64,000 nt of DNA from Pseudomonas sp. LB-090624. GTDB taxonomy: Bacteria; Pseudomonadota; Gammaproteobacteria; Pseudomonadales; Pseudomonadaceae. Positions 51,778-59,929 of this stretch are shown piece after piece. Position numbers and translations under genes: made by a program. Location: the NCBI RefSeq assembly GCF_003205205.1, contig NZ_QJRL01000004.1, forward strand, positions 62,001 to 126,000, written 5' to 3'. A model generated the notes under the pieces. It saw nothing but the letters and a program-made list of their open reading frames with translations. It made no database searches and was not told the origin of the DNA. Positions within the stretch are counted from its first letter, which is position 1; every line of letters starts with the position of its first letter.

Positions 51778-52671
51778 TCAACCCACGTTAAGCTGGCTTT
51801 TCAGCAGGTCACGGAAGGTCTGGATCAGCGGTTCGCGACTACGCCCGCGGCGGATGATCAGCGAGAACGGCGCCTGGTAGCCAAAGGTGGACGGCGACAG
51901 CACGCGCAAGTCGCCCTTGTCGACCCAGGCCTGGGCATAGTGCTCGGGCAAGTAACCGATATAGGCGCCGGACAGGATCAGGATCAACTGCGCCTCCATG
52001 CTCTCCACGGTCGCCGCACTGTGCTTGAACCCATGCCGGGCCAGCTCTGCCTGGCTCCAGTAACCACGCCCGACCATGCGCTGCTGGGTCACCACCTGCT
52101 CCGGGATACGCCGTTCGGTATACAACGGGTGGCGGCTGCTGCAGTACAGCCAGTGCTGTTCGCGGTACAACGGCTGGTACAGCAGGCCGCTCATGCGCGA
52201 GGAAAACGCGCCGATCGCCAGGTCCAGGCGATTGTCCTGCACGCCCAATTGCAATTCGTACGGGCTGGACACCGACAAGTGCAAGTGCACCGCCGGGTGC
52301 TCCTGACTGTAGGCACCGATGGCCTCGGCCAGCGGCAAGGCTCGATCACCGACCGTGGAGTCGATCACACCCAGGTTGAGGGTGCCGCGCAACTCGCCCT
52401 TGAGTGCGGCCGCGTATTGCTCGAAACCATCCAGTTCGGCTAGCAGGCGCAGAGTTTCCTGGTGGAACAGCTCGCCCTTGCTGGTCAGGCTGAAACCACC
52501 CCGGCCGCGGTGGCACAGCACGATACCCAGCGCGCCTTCCAGCTGGCTCATGTAGGTACTGATGGCCGACGTCGACAGGTTCAGCTCGCGCTGGGCGTTG
52601 GCGAAGCCCTGGTGGCGCACAACGCTGATGAAGATGCGCAGCAGTTTCAGGTCGGGCAAGGTCGAGGCCAT
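51778..52671 (-). CDS. gbuR: LysR-family regulator of guanidinobutyrate use
   Basis: Regulator of 297 aa, LysR type. Helix-turn-helix at about 10-60 (LLRIFISVVRHQGFANAQRELNLSTSAISTYMSQLEGALG) and effector domain about 90-290. It is divergent from the guanidinobutyrase gene, as in P. aeruginosa where GbuR activates gbuA in response to 4-guanidinobutyrate. A perfect palindrome lies in the gap. The ATG at 52671 is preferred to a longer frame. Confidence 0.83.
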   Translation of the reverse strand: MASTLPDLKLLRIFISVVRHQGFANAQRELNLSTSAISTYMSQLEGALGIVLCHRGRGGFSLTSKGELFHQETLRLLAELDGFEQYAAALKGELRGTLNLGVIDSTVGDRALPLAEAIGAYSQEHPAVHLHLSVSSPYELQLGVQDNRLDLAIGAFSSRMSGLLYQPLYREQHWLYCSSRHPLYTERRIPEQVVTQQRMVGRGYWSQAELARHGFKHSAATVESMEAQLILILSGAYIGYLPEHYAQAWVDKGDLRVLSPSTFGYQAPFSLIIRRGRSREPLIQTFRDLLKSQLNVG

Positions 52672-52725
52672 GGTGCAACGTTTCCACAAGGGTATTGCCG
52701 CGCAGTCTAACCGCTCTGCCGGGCT

Positions 52726-52749: not shown

Positions 52750-52896
52750 GTATTTGTCGGTAGCGATTCTTCCCCGGCACTACCTTGCGCAGACTTGGCC
52801 GAAATGTCCCTGCCCGCCGGCAAAAGCACAGTTGAAAGGCGCGCGGCGGCACAGGTTCGAACAAACAGAACAATCGACCGACTGATGAGGCCCACC

Positions 52897-53847
52897 GTGG
52901 ACAAGACTCTCCACCAACCACTGGGCGGCAACGAAATGCCGCGTTTCGGCGGCATCGCCACCATGCTCCGTCTGCCCCACCTGCAAAGCGCCGAAGGCCT
53001 GGATGCCGCCTTTATCGGCGTGCCGCTGGACATCGGCACCTCCCTGCGCTCCGGCACCCGCTTCGGCCCACGGCAGATCCGCGCCGAATCGGTGATGATC
53101 CGTCCGTATAACATGGCTACCGGGGCTGCGCCGTTCGACTCGCTGTCAGTGGCCGACATCGGCGACGTGGCGATCAACACCTTCAACCTGCTGGACGCCG
53201 TGCGCATCATCGAAGAGGCGTACGACCAGATCGTCGAGCACAACGTCATCCCGATGACCCTGGGCGGCGACCACACCATCACCCTGCCAATCCTGCGTGC
53301 GCTGCACAAGAAGCACGGCAAGATCGGCCTGGTGCATATCGATGCCCACGCTGACGTCAACGATCACATGTTCGGCGAGAAGATAGCCCACGGCACCACC
53401 TTCCGCCGCGCCGTCGAAGAAGGCCTGCTCGACTGCGACCGCGTGGTGCAGATCGGCCTGCGCGCCCAAGGCTACACCGCCGACGATTTCAACTGGAGCC
53501 GCCGCCAGGGCTTCCGCGTGGTCCAGGCCGAGGAATGCTGGCACAAGTCGCTGGAGCCGTTGATGGCCGAAGTGCGGGAAAAAGTGGGTGGCGGGCCGGT
53601 CTACCTGTCGTTCGATATCGACGGCATCGACCCGGCCTGGGCACCGGGTACCGGCACCCCGGAAATCGGCGGCTTGACCACCATCCAGGCAATGGAGATC
53701 ATTCGCGGCTGCCACGGCCTGGACCTGATCGGCTGTGACCTTGTCGAGGTCTCCCCACCTTACGACACCACCGGCAACACCTCGCTGCTGGGTGCCAACC
53801 TGCTGTTCGAAATGCTCTGCGTGCTGCCTGGCGTGGTGCGTCGCTAA
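52897..53847 (+). CDS. gbuA: Guanidinobutyrase / agmatinase-family ureohydrolase
   Basis: Manganese ureohydrolase of 316 aa that releases urea from 4-guanidinobutyrate (4-aminobutyrate as product) or a related guanidine. Mn ligands are in GGDHTIT, HIDAHADVND and SFDIDGIDP, all intact. Annotation pipelines often call it SpeB. The N-terminus DKTLHQPLGGNEMPRFGGIA matches GbuA as I recall. Start GTG 52897 is chosen because GAGG lies 7 bp upstream; the ATG at 52885 lacks a ribosome site. Confidence 0.88.
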   Translation: MDKTLHQPLGGNEMPRFGGIATMLRLPHLQSAEGLDAAFIGVPLDIGTSLRSGTRFGPRQIRAESVMIRPYNMATGAAPFDSLSVADIGDVAINTFNLLDAVRIIEEAYDQIVEHNVIPMTLGGDHTITLPILRALHKKHGKIGLVHIDAHADVNDHMFGEKIAHGTTFRRAVEEGLLDCDRVVQIGLRAQGYTADDFNWSRRQGFRVVQAEECWHKSLEPLMAEVREKVGGGPVYLSFDIDGIDPAWAPGTGTPEIGGLTTIQAMEIIRGCHGLDLIGCDLVEVSPPYDTTGNTSLLGANLLFEMLCVLPGVVRR

Positions 53848-53979
53848 TACCGCTCTACCCCGGCAGGAGCCATGAGGGAGGGCCACTGAGGCCCGCCAAC
53901 ACAAGAAAAGACCGCCGGGCGCCGTGCAAACGCCCGCGTGGTCGATCTCGCCATAATAAAGATAATCGGGAGACCCCCA

Positions 53980-55359
53980 ATGGCCTTGGACATCATTGTT
54001 GTAATGATCTACACCGCCGGCATGCTAGGGCTTGGCTGGTATGGCATGCGGCGCGCAAAAACCCATGAAGACTACCTGGTGGCCGGTCGCAACCTTGGCC
54101 CGGTGCTGTACATGGGTACCATGGCCACGACCGTGCTCGGTGGCGCTTCCACCGTCGGCACCGTGCGCCTGGGCTACGTCCACGGCATCTCCGGGTTCTG
54201 GCTGTGCGCAGCCTTGGGCCTGGGCATCATCGCCATCAACCTGTTCCTCGCCAAACCCTTGCTGCGCCTGCGTATCTTCACCGTGACCCAGGTGCTCGAG
54301 CAGCGCTATAACCCTACCGCCCGCCAGGCCAGCGCCGTGATCATGCTGGCCTACGCGCTGATGATCGGTGTGACCTCGACCCTGGCCATGGCCACCGTAT
54401 TGCAGGTACTGCTGGACCTGCCGTTCTGGGCGTCGCTGATGCTCGGTGGCGGCGTGGTGGTGCTGTACTCGACCATCGGCGGGATGTGGTCGCTGACCCT
54501 GACCGACATCGTCCAGTTCGTGATCAAGACCGTCGGCCTGATGTTCATCCTGCTGCCGGTGTGCCTGTACAAGGCCGGTGGCTGGGATACCCTGGTGGCC
54601 AAACTGCCGGCGGCCAGCTTCCAGCTGACCACCATTGGCTGGGACACCATCATCACCTACTTCCTGATCTACTTCTTCGGCATCCTGATTGGCCAGGACA
54701 TCTGGCAGCGGGTGTTCACTGCCCGCGATGAAAAGGTCTGCCAGCGTGCCGGTACTACTGCCGGTGTGTACTGCGTACTGTACGGCCTGGCCTGTGCGGC
54801 GATCGGCATGGCAGCACACGTGCTGATGCCCGACCTGGCCAACCCGAACAATGCCTTCGCCGAGATGATCAAGACCACCCTGCCAGATGGCATTCGTGGC
54901 TTGCTGATGGCGGCAGCCCTGGCGGCCATGATGTCCACCGCAAGCGCCGGCCTGCTGGCGGCCTCGACCACCGTGACCGAAGACCTGCTGCCCAAGCTGC
55001 GAGGCGGCAAGCAGTCGAGCCTGGGCATGAGCCGCCTGTTCACCTTGCTCACCGGCCTGGTGGTGCTGGGCATCGCGCTGATGGTGAATGATGTGATCAA
55101 CGCCCTGACCCTGGCCTACAACCTGCTGGTCGGCGGCATGCTGATCCCGCTGATTGGCGCCATCTTCTGGAAACGTGCAACCACTTCCGGTGCAATTGCC
55201 AGCATGTCGCTGGGCTTTGCCACCGCGCTGCTGTTCATGTTCAAGGATGGGCTGGAGGCCAATACGCCGATCTACTACAGCCTGGCCATTGGCCTGGTGA
55301 GCTTTGTGGTGGTGAGCCTGCTGTCGCGCAAGCCGGCGGCCGCGGCGACACTGGCCTGA
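53980..55359 (+). CDS. Sodium:solute symporter, SSS family
   Basis: Membrane transporter of 459 aa with about 13 transmembrane segments. GLGWYGMRRAKTHEDYLVAGRNLG and GGASTVGTVRLGYVHGISGFW match the SSS fold near the sodium sites; AALAAMMSTASAGLLAASTTVTEDLLPKL is the conserved C-half signature. It lies 132 bp after gbuA on the same strand and ends at a strong terminator, so it is the likely importer of the guanidino compound. The ATG at 53980 has GGGAG upstream. Confidence 0.9.
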   Translation: MALDIIVVMIYTAGMLGLGWYGMRRAKTHEDYLVAGRNLGPVLYMGTMATTVLGGASTVGTVRLGYVHGISGFWLCAALGLGIIAINLFLAKPLLRLRIFTVTQVLEQRYNPTARQASAVIMLAYALMIGVTSTLAMATVLQVLLDLPFWASLMLGGGVVVLYSTIGGMWSLTLTDIVQFVIKTVGLMFILLPVCLYKAGGWDTLVAKLPAASFQLTTIGWDTIITYFLIYFFGILIGQDIWQRVFTARDEKVCQRAGTTAGVYCVLYGLACAAIGMAAHVLMPDLANPNNAFAEMIKTTLPDGIRGLLMAAALAAMMSTASAGLLAASTTVTEDLLPKLRGGKQSSLGMSRLFTLLTGLVVLGIALMVNDVINALTLAYNLLVGGMLIPLIGAIFWKRATTSGAIASMSLGFATALLFMFKDGLEANTPIYYSLAIGLVSFVVVSLLSRKPAAAATLA

Positions 55360-55385
55360 TCTACAACCTGTAGGGGCACACATAA

Positions 55386-55425
55386 AAAGGCCGCTGCACC
55401 CACCCAGGTGCAGCGGCCTTTGGTC
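55386..55425. terminator. Strong bidirectional terminator
   Basis: AAAGGCCGCTGCACC (55386-55400) and its exact complement (55407-55421) give a 15 bp stem with a 6-nt loop. T-rich tracts follow on both strands. It serves the symporter gene on the plus strand and the small minus-strand ORF that ends at 55430. Confidence 0.92.
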
Positions 55426-55429
55426 TTTC

Positions 55430-55558
55430 TCAGCGACGGCGCGATTGGCGCTTGCGCTGCTCTTCATCAGTCGGGATCGGCACCGGCTGCAAGGGTGGTG
55501 GAATCAGCCCCAAGGCGACCGCCAGGTCGTGGAGCCAGTTAGACAGTGGTTTATTCAT
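55430..55558 (-). CDS. 42-aa small ORF resembling PA1414 (sicX sRNA locus)
   Basis: The peptide begins MNKPLSNWLHDLAVALGLIP and ends QRKRQSRRR: a short amphipathic helix, a proline linker (IPPPLQPVPIP) and a basic tail. I recall PA1414 of P. aeruginosa as a similar short peptide beside a LysR gene and near gbuA/gbuR. That locus is reported to produce SicX, a small RNA induced at low oxygen through Anr. Here the ORF ends 5 bp before a 15 bp terminator stem and an ANR-like box lies 115 bp upstream. Whether the product is the peptide, the RNA or both is unresolved. Confidence 0.7.
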   Translation of the reverse strand: MNKPLSNWLHDLAVALGLIPPPLQPVPIPTDEEQRKRQSRRR

Positions 55559-55673
55559 AAATGCCCCCTTGACGGGTCAGCCTCACGGCAAATCAATCCT
55601 GCGATGTTTCATACAGATCATAGCCCGATGTCCTGTATTACGCATGCCTCTGCTCTTACAGATATGGGCCATT

Positions 55674-55687
55674 TTGACTCGGATCAA
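55674..55687 (-). promoter_or_regulatory. ANR/FNR-like box upstream of the sicX-like ORF
   Basis: On the minus strand TTGAT-CCGA-GTCAA, one mismatch to the ANR/FNR consensus TTGAT-N4-ATCAA. It overlaps the stop codon of the upstream LysR gene and points toward the small ORF. A TATGAT hexamer lies 56 bp downstream of the box centre near 55618-55623 and TAATAC lies nearer, but neither spacing is the classical -41.5. Confidence 0.5.
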
Positions 55688-56577
55688 GCCGTGGCGGCGC
55701 ATTCCGACGACTGGTCAATCGTTTCGCTTTGTTGCAGGTCGATCCAGGCCTGCAAGTTTGCCCCGCGCATACCTTGGCGCCACATCAGCCAAGTGACCGC
55801 CTGATCGAACGGCGCTTGCAATGGATGCACCCTTACCCGATCGCGCCCGGGCAGGCTGTCGAGCATCGACCGGGCCATCATAGCCACCCCCGCGCCAGCG
55901 ATCACGCACGCCAGCATGCTCTGGTACGACTCGATTTCCATTACCCGGCCCATGGGCGTGTGCGCATGGGCATACCAGGCCTCCAGGCGCATGCGGTACG
56001 AACAGCCTTGGCGGAAGGTGAACACCGCCTTGCCCGCCACATCCTTGGCGCCGTGCACTGGCGGGTGTTCAGGGCTGGTGATCAGCACCAGTTGTTCATC
56101 GCACAACGGTACACCGTCAAGACCGGCCAGGTTGAGCGGGCCGTCCACCAGAGCAGCATCCAGGCTGTGGTTGAGCAGGCCTTCGAGCAATTCACCGCTG
56201 GGCGCGGCGCGCACCTGCAGGTTCACTGCCGGGTAAGCCTGGTGGTAACGCGCCAGCAACGCCGGCAGGTGGGTGGCGGCCGTGCTGTACATGGTCCCCA
56301 GCACGAAATCCCCGGCAGGCTGGCCGCCACGCACTGCGGCCAACGCCTCGTCGCGCAGCGCTGACATACGGTTGGCGTAGTCCAGCAGCACCTTGCCTGC
56401 CGGTGACAATTGCAAACGCTGGCGCTCACGCAGGAACAGCTCGACGCCCAGTTGTTCTTCAAGCTGGCGCAGGCGCGTCGACAGGTTGGACGGTACCCGA
56501 TGCAGGCGCTCGGCGGCACGGGTGATGGAACCCTCCTCGGCGACCGCCTGGAAGATACGCAGCTGGCTGAACTCCAC
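55684..56577 (-). CDS. LysR-family regulator
   Basis: Regulator of 297 aa. The helix-turn-helix spans about 5-60 (LRIFQAVAEEGSITRAAERLHRVPSNLSTRLRQLEEQLG) and the effector domain about 88-290. The GTG at 56577 is chosen because GGAG precedes it by 6 bp; a TTG four codons earlier would overlap that site. It is divergent from an MFS gene with a perfect palindrome between them, so the MFS gene is the likely target. Confidence 0.85.
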   Translation of the reverse strand: MEFSQLRIFQAVAEEGSITRAAERLHRVPSNLSTRLRQLEEQLGVELFLRERQRLQLSPAGKVLLDYANRMSALRDEALAAVRGGQPAGDFVLGTMYSTAATHLPALLARYHQAYPAVNLQVRAAPSGELLEGLLNHSLDAALVDGPLNLAGLDGVPLCDEQLVLITSPEHPPVHGAKDVAGKAVFTFRQGCSYRMRLEAWYAHAHTPMGRVMEIESYQSMLACVIAGAGVAMMARSMLDSLPGRDRVRVHPLQAPFDQAVTWLMWRQGMRGANLQAWIDLQQSETIDQSSECAATA

Positions 56578-56613
56578 GGTATTCTCCAAAACAGAACAAC
56601 TTGATCATCATTA

Positions 56614-59418: not shown

Positions 59419-59673
59419 TCAGCGCTGACGTTGTTGTGCTTGCATGTACTGGCGCAGCAACTGATTGATCCGGGTCTGGTAGCCGCTGCCCTGCTCCTTG
59501 AACCAGGCAAGGACATCTGAGTCCAGTCGAATGGTCACCGTCTGCTTGGCGGGAACGCGCAGCTCGGCCTGGCGGAAAAAGTCGTGGTCCAGTTCAGGGA
59601 TATCTGATGTGTCGATATCCTTGTCGTCCTGTCGAGCCAGGCGGCTCCAGTCAGTTTTCGATGATTTGGTCAT
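59419..59673 (-). CDS. brnA: BrnA-type antitoxin
   Basis: 84-aa protein with a ribbon-helix-helix at the C-terminus (KQTVTIRLDSDVLAWFKEQGSGYQTRINQLLRQYM), the COG3514/BrnA form. The acidic N-terminal half (DDKDIDTSDIPELDHDFF) is expected to wrap the toxin. It overlaps the upstream toxin gene by 23 bp. It should bind and silence BrnT and repress the operon together with it. Confidence 0.87.
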   Translation of the reverse strand: MTKSSKTDWSRLARQDDKDIDTSDIPELDHDFFRQAELRVPAKQTVTIRLDSDVLAWFKEQGSGYQTRINQLLRQYMQAQQRQR

Positions 59674-59929
59674 AGTACCTGGCCTCCCGTTTGGTGGCTT
59701 TTCTTGCAGAAATGATGCGAATCACCTCACCCCGCCTCTCCGTGTACACGACGACACCTATCAGCGCCTTTAGCCATCCTAGGCTAACCCAACGTTCTTC
59801 AGCACACTCTACATCCTCATCACGCCGGATCAGCATGGGATGGTTGAACATGTCAGGAACGTCGACAAAGTCGATGCCGTGCTTGCGAATATTGCTCTGA
59901 TTTTTCTCTTCGTCCCATTCAAAGAACAT
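59651..59929 (-). CDS. brnT: BrnT-type ribonuclease toxin
   Basis: 92-aa RelE-fold ribonuclease of the BrnT family. FFEWDEEKNQSNIRKHGIDF is the hallmark N-terminus, followed by EERWVSLGWLKALIGVVVYTERRGEVIRIISARKATKREARYY, which carries the catalytic basic residues. It is upstream of the antitoxin gene, the usual order for this family. A 22 bp palindrome lies immediately before it. It has a weak ribosome site. Confidence 0.87.
   Translation of the reverse strand: MFFEWDEEKNQSNIRKHGIDFVDVPDMFNHPMLIRRDEDVECAEERWVSLGWLKALIGVVVYTERRGEVIRIISARKATKREARYYDQIIEN

Follow-up and report, generated by a model that had tools for sequence, protein, structure and literature searches.

The window, i.e., the 64,000-nt stretch of contig NZ_QJRL01000004.1 of Pseudomonas sp. 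LB-090624 that was analysed here, contains between a LysR-type regulator gene and an intrinsic terminator a 42-codon frame that, as judged from sequence comparisons, is a genuine gene of a PA1414-family small protein, and not SicX. In our opinion it is probably a free-standing small-protein gene, activated by Anr at low oxygen, SicX being a different part of the locus. An earlier note had proposed that this region is a P. putida counterpart of the sicX/PA1414 locus of P. aeruginosa. Protein family, gene order and the positioned ANR box support the part of that proposal which concerns the PA1414 locus; the part concerning the SicX RNA did not hold, as no match to the SicX-like leader was found in the window's genome. 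The features on which this account is based are collected in Table 1.

Table 1. Features of the PA1414-family locus in the window (positions of the window; predicted elements are indicated as such)
Feature	Position	Strand	Remarks
Second LysR-type ORF	51778-52689	-	beyond the ureohydrolase-type ORF
Ureohydrolase-type (agmatinase-type) ORF	52795-53847	+	beyond the symporter gene
Sodium:solute symporter gene	53938..55359	+	convergent; from ORF list and gene order
Intrinsic terminator, bidirectional	55386..55421	both	common to the small gene (-) and the symporter gene (+)
PA1414-family small-protein gene, 42 aa	55430..55558	-	ATG start; NF041729 match; pN/pS 0.10
Shine-Dalgarno sequence AAGGGGG	55564..55570	-	precedes the 42-aa ORF
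Predicted transcription start of candidate ANR-dependent promoter	55610	-	placed 12 nt after the first -10 base
Imperfect 11-bp inverted repeat ATACAGGACAT-N6-ATGATCTGTAT	55611..55638	-	over the -10 element, putida group
-10 element TATGAT	55617..55622	-	C before it, no -35 consensus; invariant in the 22 putida-group leaders shown
ANR/FNR box TTGATCCGAGTCAA	55674..55687	-	one mismatch to TTGATNNNNATCAA; centre 70.5 bp upstream of predicted start
LysR-type regulator gene	55684..56589	-	in place of PA1413; directly upstream of the small gene

A small protein of the PA1414 family

The predicted 42-aa product aligns end to end (residues 1-42 to model positions 1-43) with the NCBIfam equivalog model NF041729, "PA1414 family protein", with 77.7 bits and an E value of 3.4e-22, the curated cut-off being 28 bits. 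The window gene is in this sense already of a known kind, its family having been named by NCBI, and the peptide similarity to PA1414 that the earlier note wished to see checked is present. A match to the window peptide at E<=0.01 was found in 353 of the 398 genus genomes. The family model scored over its cut-off in 295 of 398 genomes of a Pseudomonadaceae sample and at E<=0.01 in 302 of them, representing 12 of 19 genera, and all eight genomes over the cut-off in an order-level sample of 244 belong to the family of the window's genome (Pseudomonadaceae). All 25 genomes of genus g9, which is taken here as the genus of P. aeruginosa (the locus of one of them, G511, is 98.1% identical to that of a P. 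aeruginosa record), carry a family match. A Pfam search with the peptide and a tblastn search of a plasmid collection with it gave no match, and the four Rfam matches obtained were all below the gathering score.

The 42-aa ORF is under strong purifying selection. Codon-level conservation was assessed for 94 distinct ORFs in six groups, the names of which (putida, fluorescens-type, syringae-type, etc.) are our own, with 100 column shuffles per group and up to 40 pairs each. The pN/pS ratio was 0.10 in the putida group (29 distinct ORFs; column-shuffle mean of 0.90), 0.06 in the fluorescens-type group (17 ORFs), 0.14 in the syringae-type group (6 ORFs), 0.22 in Stutzerimonas (10 ORFs), and 0.31 in both g9 (24 ORFs) and g12 (8 ORFs), with shuffle means of 0.85-0.99 across the six groups and 0.40 as the lowest single shuffle. 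Each of the 94 ORFs starts with ATG and is preceded by a G-rich, Shine-Dalgarno-like motif, as defined by a broad pattern.

The residues M1, L16, G17, L18, P22, Q24 and P27 of the peptide are invariant. AlphaFold2, run with 68 sequences, predicted a helix at residues 3-15, a linker and a weak helix at residues 31-39, with a mean pLDDT of 72 (79 for residues 1-10 and 89 for residues 11-20). The earlier description of the peptide as an amphipathic helix with a proline linker and a basic tail agrees with this prediction as far as the helix is concerned, while its amphipathic character is weakly backed by a modest hydrophobic moment (0.26 for residues 4-18). A profile search of the PDB detected no relative of known structure by sequence, the best match (DNA polymerase I, E value 0.28) being at chance level. 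The predicted short hydrophobic N-terminal helix, followed by a Pro-rich linker and an Arg-rich tail, suggests that the peptide may dock on the membrane or on a partner protein during low-oxygen growth.

Gene neighbourhood and terminator

The ORF, the terminator stem beside it and the neighbouring genes were all confirmed as described in the earlier note, the last of these as genes of the LysR, symporter, ureohydrolase and second LysR types; the names gbuA and gbuR presumably apply to the ureohydrolase-type and second LysR-type ORFs. The terminator, with a 16-pair stem and a T-rich tail on the minus strand and 15 pairs on the plus strand, has a stem energy of -31.8 kcal/mol (z of -6.6 relative to 200 dinucleotide shuffles) and is the sole terminator-like stem in positions 55300-55800, located after the ORF. 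Elsewhere in the window, at 59419-59929, there are two small minus-strand ORFs that presumably resemble a BrnT/BrnA-type toxin-antitoxin pair.

In the window and in the P. aeruginosa record alike, the small gene has LysR, MFS and EamA/DMT genes on one side and the symporter gene on the other. The order in NZ_CP131792.1 (P. aeruginosa) is DMT, MFS, LysR, PA1414 family protein, three more genes, and sodium:solute symporter. This 847-kb record, annotated as a plasmid and conjugative, carries the whole PA1414 neighbourhood, apparently as a chromosomal block. A LysR gene lies directly upstream of the small gene in 28 of 31 putida-group, 15 of 17 fluorescens-type, four of eight g12 and one of 24 g9 loci, and in none of the six syringae-type or ten Stutzerimonas loci. 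The other 23 g9 loci have an EamA/DMT gene in that place, which looks like the outcome of a loss of LysR and the MFS gene. The convergent symporter gene follows the small gene in 29 of 30 putida-group loci.

A candidate low-oxygen promoter

The one-mismatch ANR box noticed earlier upstream of the ORF is indeed present and shares bases with the LysR stop codon. ANR-like boxes are conserved in sequence and position within the putida group. Among 100 distinct 300-nt leaders, which remained of 143 after the removal of duplicates, 32 have a box with at most one mismatch; for random stretches taken from these loci the figure is 3.5%. In the putida group, the loci of which were taken as top-scoring matches and are close relatives rather than independent samples, such a box is present in 25 of 30 distinct leaders (seven perfect, 18 with one mismatch) vs. 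1.7% of 5640 random 200-mers.

No sigma-70 -35/-10 pair was found at the locus, and the lack of a -35 consensus is expected of an activator-dependent promoter. In class I promoters of FNR/Anr, sites are located near -61.5, -71.5, -82.5 and -92.5. The spacing between the box and the predicted start, which depends on the choice of the -10 element by pattern, is 70.5 bp in 24 of 30 putida-group leaders and 69.5 in one more (at most one mismatch), 71.5 in seven of 17 fluorescens-type leaders and 81.5 in one (at most two mismatches), and, among 24 g9 leaders, 93.5 in 20, 94.5 in one and 99.5 in another. These main spacings are about whole helical turns apart, which suits class I activation by FNR-type regulators; the spacing of 64.5 in four of six g12 leaders fits the helical series poorly. 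Three regulators of the FNR type (L224, L225, L226), with the cysteine motif at the N-terminus, are encoded in the window's genome. Activation of the small gene by Anr and the position of its transcription start are predictions.

Control by Anr is not universal, since the box is poorly matched in clades that keep the protein: it has at least two mismatches in 15 of 17 fluorescens-type leaders (three or four in eight of them), and three or four in all six syringae-type and all ten Stutzerimonas leaders. In the syringae-type loci L089, L092, L096 and L097 the small protein is kept with neither a clear ANR box nor this LysR gene upstream; therefore, control must differ there. The inverted repeat that covers the -10 element in the putida group is a possible operator or RNA hairpin; if an operator, then of some regulator that is perhaps the adjacent LysR. 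Fluorescens-type leaders have a related motif, AACAGATCATTGC, at a more upstream position, where it is well conserved.

Predicted Anr regulons have been published for five species, P. putida among them, the boxes lying up to 300 bp ahead of an annotated start (PMC6588701); the names PA1414 and PA1413 do not occur in the main text of that paper.

PA1414 and the SicX-like leader in the P. aeruginosa genus

According to the available part of PMC10247376, PA1414 is a 234-bp gene with a Rho-independent terminator inside it, and PA1414/SicX exceeds all other P. aeruginosa genes in expression during chronic infections of humans, its infection transcripts being limited to the 5' region and extending across the annotated start. 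The same part gives ubiUVT (UbiU/UbiV) as the SicX target, reports no SicX homologues outside P. aeruginosa on the basis of an orthologue filter of >90% identity and coverage, and describes a truncated 5' allele that restores anaerobic growth; the protein would therefore be unnecessary for that trait. A transcript spanning the annotated start implies a start nearer to the box, and promoter geometry may thus differ between clades. PA1414 is listed as a hypothetical protein in a table of PMC8087004, as far as this source was available.

The 234-bp frame of the P. aeruginosa record starts with a GTG exactly 99 nt ahead of the ATG, this being the only ATG, GTG or TTG in the open stretch that yields 234 bp, and consists of a 33-codon leader and a 44-aa protein. 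The record itself annotates a 44-aa PA1414 family protein from the internal ATG, and NF041729 matches solely residues 34-77 of the 77-residue frame. Most likely, the old PA1414 annotation fuses the conserved protein with a leader of 33 codons. The extension is not a conserved part of the protein, since a stop codon interrupts it within 18 codons of the ATG in 11 of the 23 distinct g9 leaders (in six, after seven).

The structure of the leader was analysed in alignment A2 of these 23 leaders, with two hairpins set from the predicted fold. Pairing is possible in 97.3% of cells, as compared to 95.9% in shuffles (none of 500 as high) and 33-53% in slid versions. Hairpin 2 pairs in 100%, with four of nine pairs changed on both sides; hairpin 1 pairs in 95.9%, with one of 17 pairs changed on both sides, seven invariant, and two weak (8/22 and 5/23 unpaired). 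The loop of hairpin 1 is contained in the 18-mer GCGGAGAGTGGGACGCCG, which does not vary among the g9 leaders and is present in P. aeruginosa. Among the 12 nt after hairpin 2, counted by eye, there are five T in P. aeruginosa and three in the commonest g9 type, but also five in L112 and L140, so that these counts do not establish a terminator tail specific to the species.

A covariance model of the SicX-like leader (R1) matched 24 of 25 g9 genomes at 86-126 bits and the P. aeruginosa record at 87 bits. In the remaining one, G518, it gave a stray match of 17.8 bits away from the PA1414 locus; this genome, though in the list of the P. aeruginosa genus, has a putida-type PA1414 locus (L142) with no SicX-like leader, and is perhaps misplaced or mixed. 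The model also matched 13 g12 genomes at 19-27 bits, mainly via hairpin 2 in the alignments shown, and in the eight of them with a listed peptide position the match is at the PA1414 locus. Five further genomes at 18-20 bits were counted as background because similar strays occur elsewhere. In the window's genome, no R1 match was obtained with stricter or laxer (E<=0.1) filters, so the similarity of the untranslated region to PA1414 that the earlier note had asked about was not found. With the filters off, the window leader scored 3.5 bits vs. 87 in P. aeruginosa, and homology of this leader to SicX was rejected. The laxer run covered 35 genomes, of which 28 had no match and seven had one (four are true g9 controls, and those in G092, G446 and G518 are strays); seven other putida-group genomes and the fluorescens-type and syringae-type genomes of that run were without a match.

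UbiU-type genes, recognised as a third U32 gene that in seven genomes adjoins a fourth, occur in 15 of 45 hand-picked genomes. No UbiU/UbiV-type gene was found in the window's genome (G000), which has two U32-family genes, and no UbiU-type gene in seven other putida-group genomes or in G540, G467 and G405. The last three keep the full SicX-like leader, which indicates that its conservation is independent of ubiUVT. We infer that SicX lies in the two-hairpin leader of a PA1414-family gene.

Alternative readings

A chance ORF between LysR and the terminator could be suspected on account of its shortness, but its presence across most of the genus genomes, its low pN/pS and the equivalog match refute this reading, to which we assign practically no weight. 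It could also be argued that the product of the locus is a regulatory RNA of the SicX type, the ORF being incidental or secondary: the gene order and the ANR box are as for sicX, and a hairpin (AUACAG...CUGUAU) is predicted in the putida leader. Such a reading appears highly improbable, however, in view of the failure of the SicX-leader model in the window's genome, even with filters off, the absence of a terminator-like site between the promoter and the ORF and of a UbiU/UbiV-type gene from the genome, and the strong codon-level selection on the ORF.

A dual-function RNA in P. putida, i.e., an mRNA of the small protein that also acts in trans via its leader or 3' end, is unlikely, though less so than the former reading. 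The putida-group leaders share two blocks, GCATGCG and CTATGATCTGTATGA, with hardly any variation, and in P. aeruginosa SicX is expected within the leader of this gene. The blocks are, however, explained equally well as promoter DNA, and the predicted transcription start is at the end of the second block, little of which would be transcribed. Moreover, the duplexes predicted for the window or P. aeruginosa-type block with 15 ubiU leaders are not clearly above shuffles: the best of 30 was matched by 9% of shuffles, and that of G511, which by eye has the position given in the available part of PMC10247376, in an arm beside the ribosome site, was equalled by 42%. RsmA-type GGA motifs in the putida leader were also considered and rejected, as by eye the GGA is not kept in several aligned leaders. 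The idea that a CCC/GGG mini-hairpin sequesters the Shine-Dalgarno sequence is weak and is not claimed here; accessibility of this sequence was below that of shuffles in 21 of 27 putida-group, 12 of 17 fluorescens-type, six of six syringae-type, 14 of 21 P. aeruginosa-genus, three of seven g12 and two of nine Stutzerimonas leaders.

Proposed model and its meaning

In the preferred model of a free-standing small-protein gene, Anr or one of the two FNR-type paralogues encoded in this genome would bind the box TTGATCCGAGTCAA (55687-55674) at low oxygen and activate a class I-type promoter with the -10 element TATGAT (55622-55617). A leader of about 52 nt would be transcribed, the 42-aa protein translated, and the transcript ended at the common 16-bp terminator. 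In P. aeruginosa, the orthologue of this protein would be residues 34-77 of the PA1414 frame, which has 77 codons, and in the genus of that species the leader of the same gene would have grown into a two-hairpin RNA.

With a slight preference over the contrary, we further propose that SicX is the leader of an old, family-wide, low-oxygen-responsive small-protein gene and not a stand-alone P. aeruginosa RNA. In the P. aeruginosa genus, this leader would have become a two-hairpin RNA with an invariant apical loop and a role older than ubiUVT control, as it is kept in species without a UbiU/UbiV-type gene. In P. aeruginosa it would be an attenuated leader, with hairpin 2 as the presumed terminator and the 44-aa protein made solely on read-through; the protein would be ancestral, and in P. 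putida the sole product.

That SicX is the leader of a small-protein gene present across the family, and has relatives beyond P. aeruginosa, seems to be a new view. No report was found in the literature under "PA1414 family" or PP_4523-4525, and among the literature matches listed, which are mostly without subscription papers and were available in part, none was seen to describe a small protein encoded at PA1414 or the occurrence of SicX in a species other than P. aeruginosa. In the available parts of PMC12300143, PMC8120321 and PMC8662654, "PA1414" matches solely as PA14_14xxx locus tags, and in that of PMC10433244, on Stutzerimonas small proteins, it occurs 0 times. If the proposal is true, the SicX RNA has relatives for comparison, the species that keep the leader without UbiU/UbiV constitute a natural experiment, and a conserved protein at the PA1414/SicX locus has been overlooked. 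As far as the available part of PMC10247376 shows, the alleles used there change the annotated start or frame or keep solely the 5' part; alleles of such design may leave the ATG of the protein itself intact, or lack the protein. Safe strains of P. putida could then be used for finding the low-oxygen role of the protein.

Comparison with known systems

The window shares with the SicX locus, as described in the available part of PMC10247376, the same location, the same LysR gene upstream and an ANR box upstream. It differs in that the SicX-type two-hairpin leader with the loop GAGAGUGGGA has no match at the window locus, in that no terminator-like site was found between the promoter and the ORF, whereas the available account of the 234-bp PA1414 gene places a Rho-independent terminator inside it, and in that no gene of the UbiU/UbiV type, the target of SicX, was seen in the window's genome. 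The R1 matches outside P. aeruginosa contrast with the absence of SicX homologues stated in the accessible part of PMC10247376. In comparison with class I promoters of FNR/Anr, the window has a box centred at about -70.5 and no -35 consensus, the action of Anr being predicted here. The P. aeruginosa locus has three extra genes between PA1414 and the symporter gene, beyond the order seen in the window. The product of the window gene is closest in kind to the PA1414 family protein of P. aeruginosa, WP_003087006.1, with a match over all 43 model positions and with the same neighbours, although it has 42 aa vs. 44 aa in P. aeruginosa and is about 45-55% identical to members from the P. aeruginosa genus.
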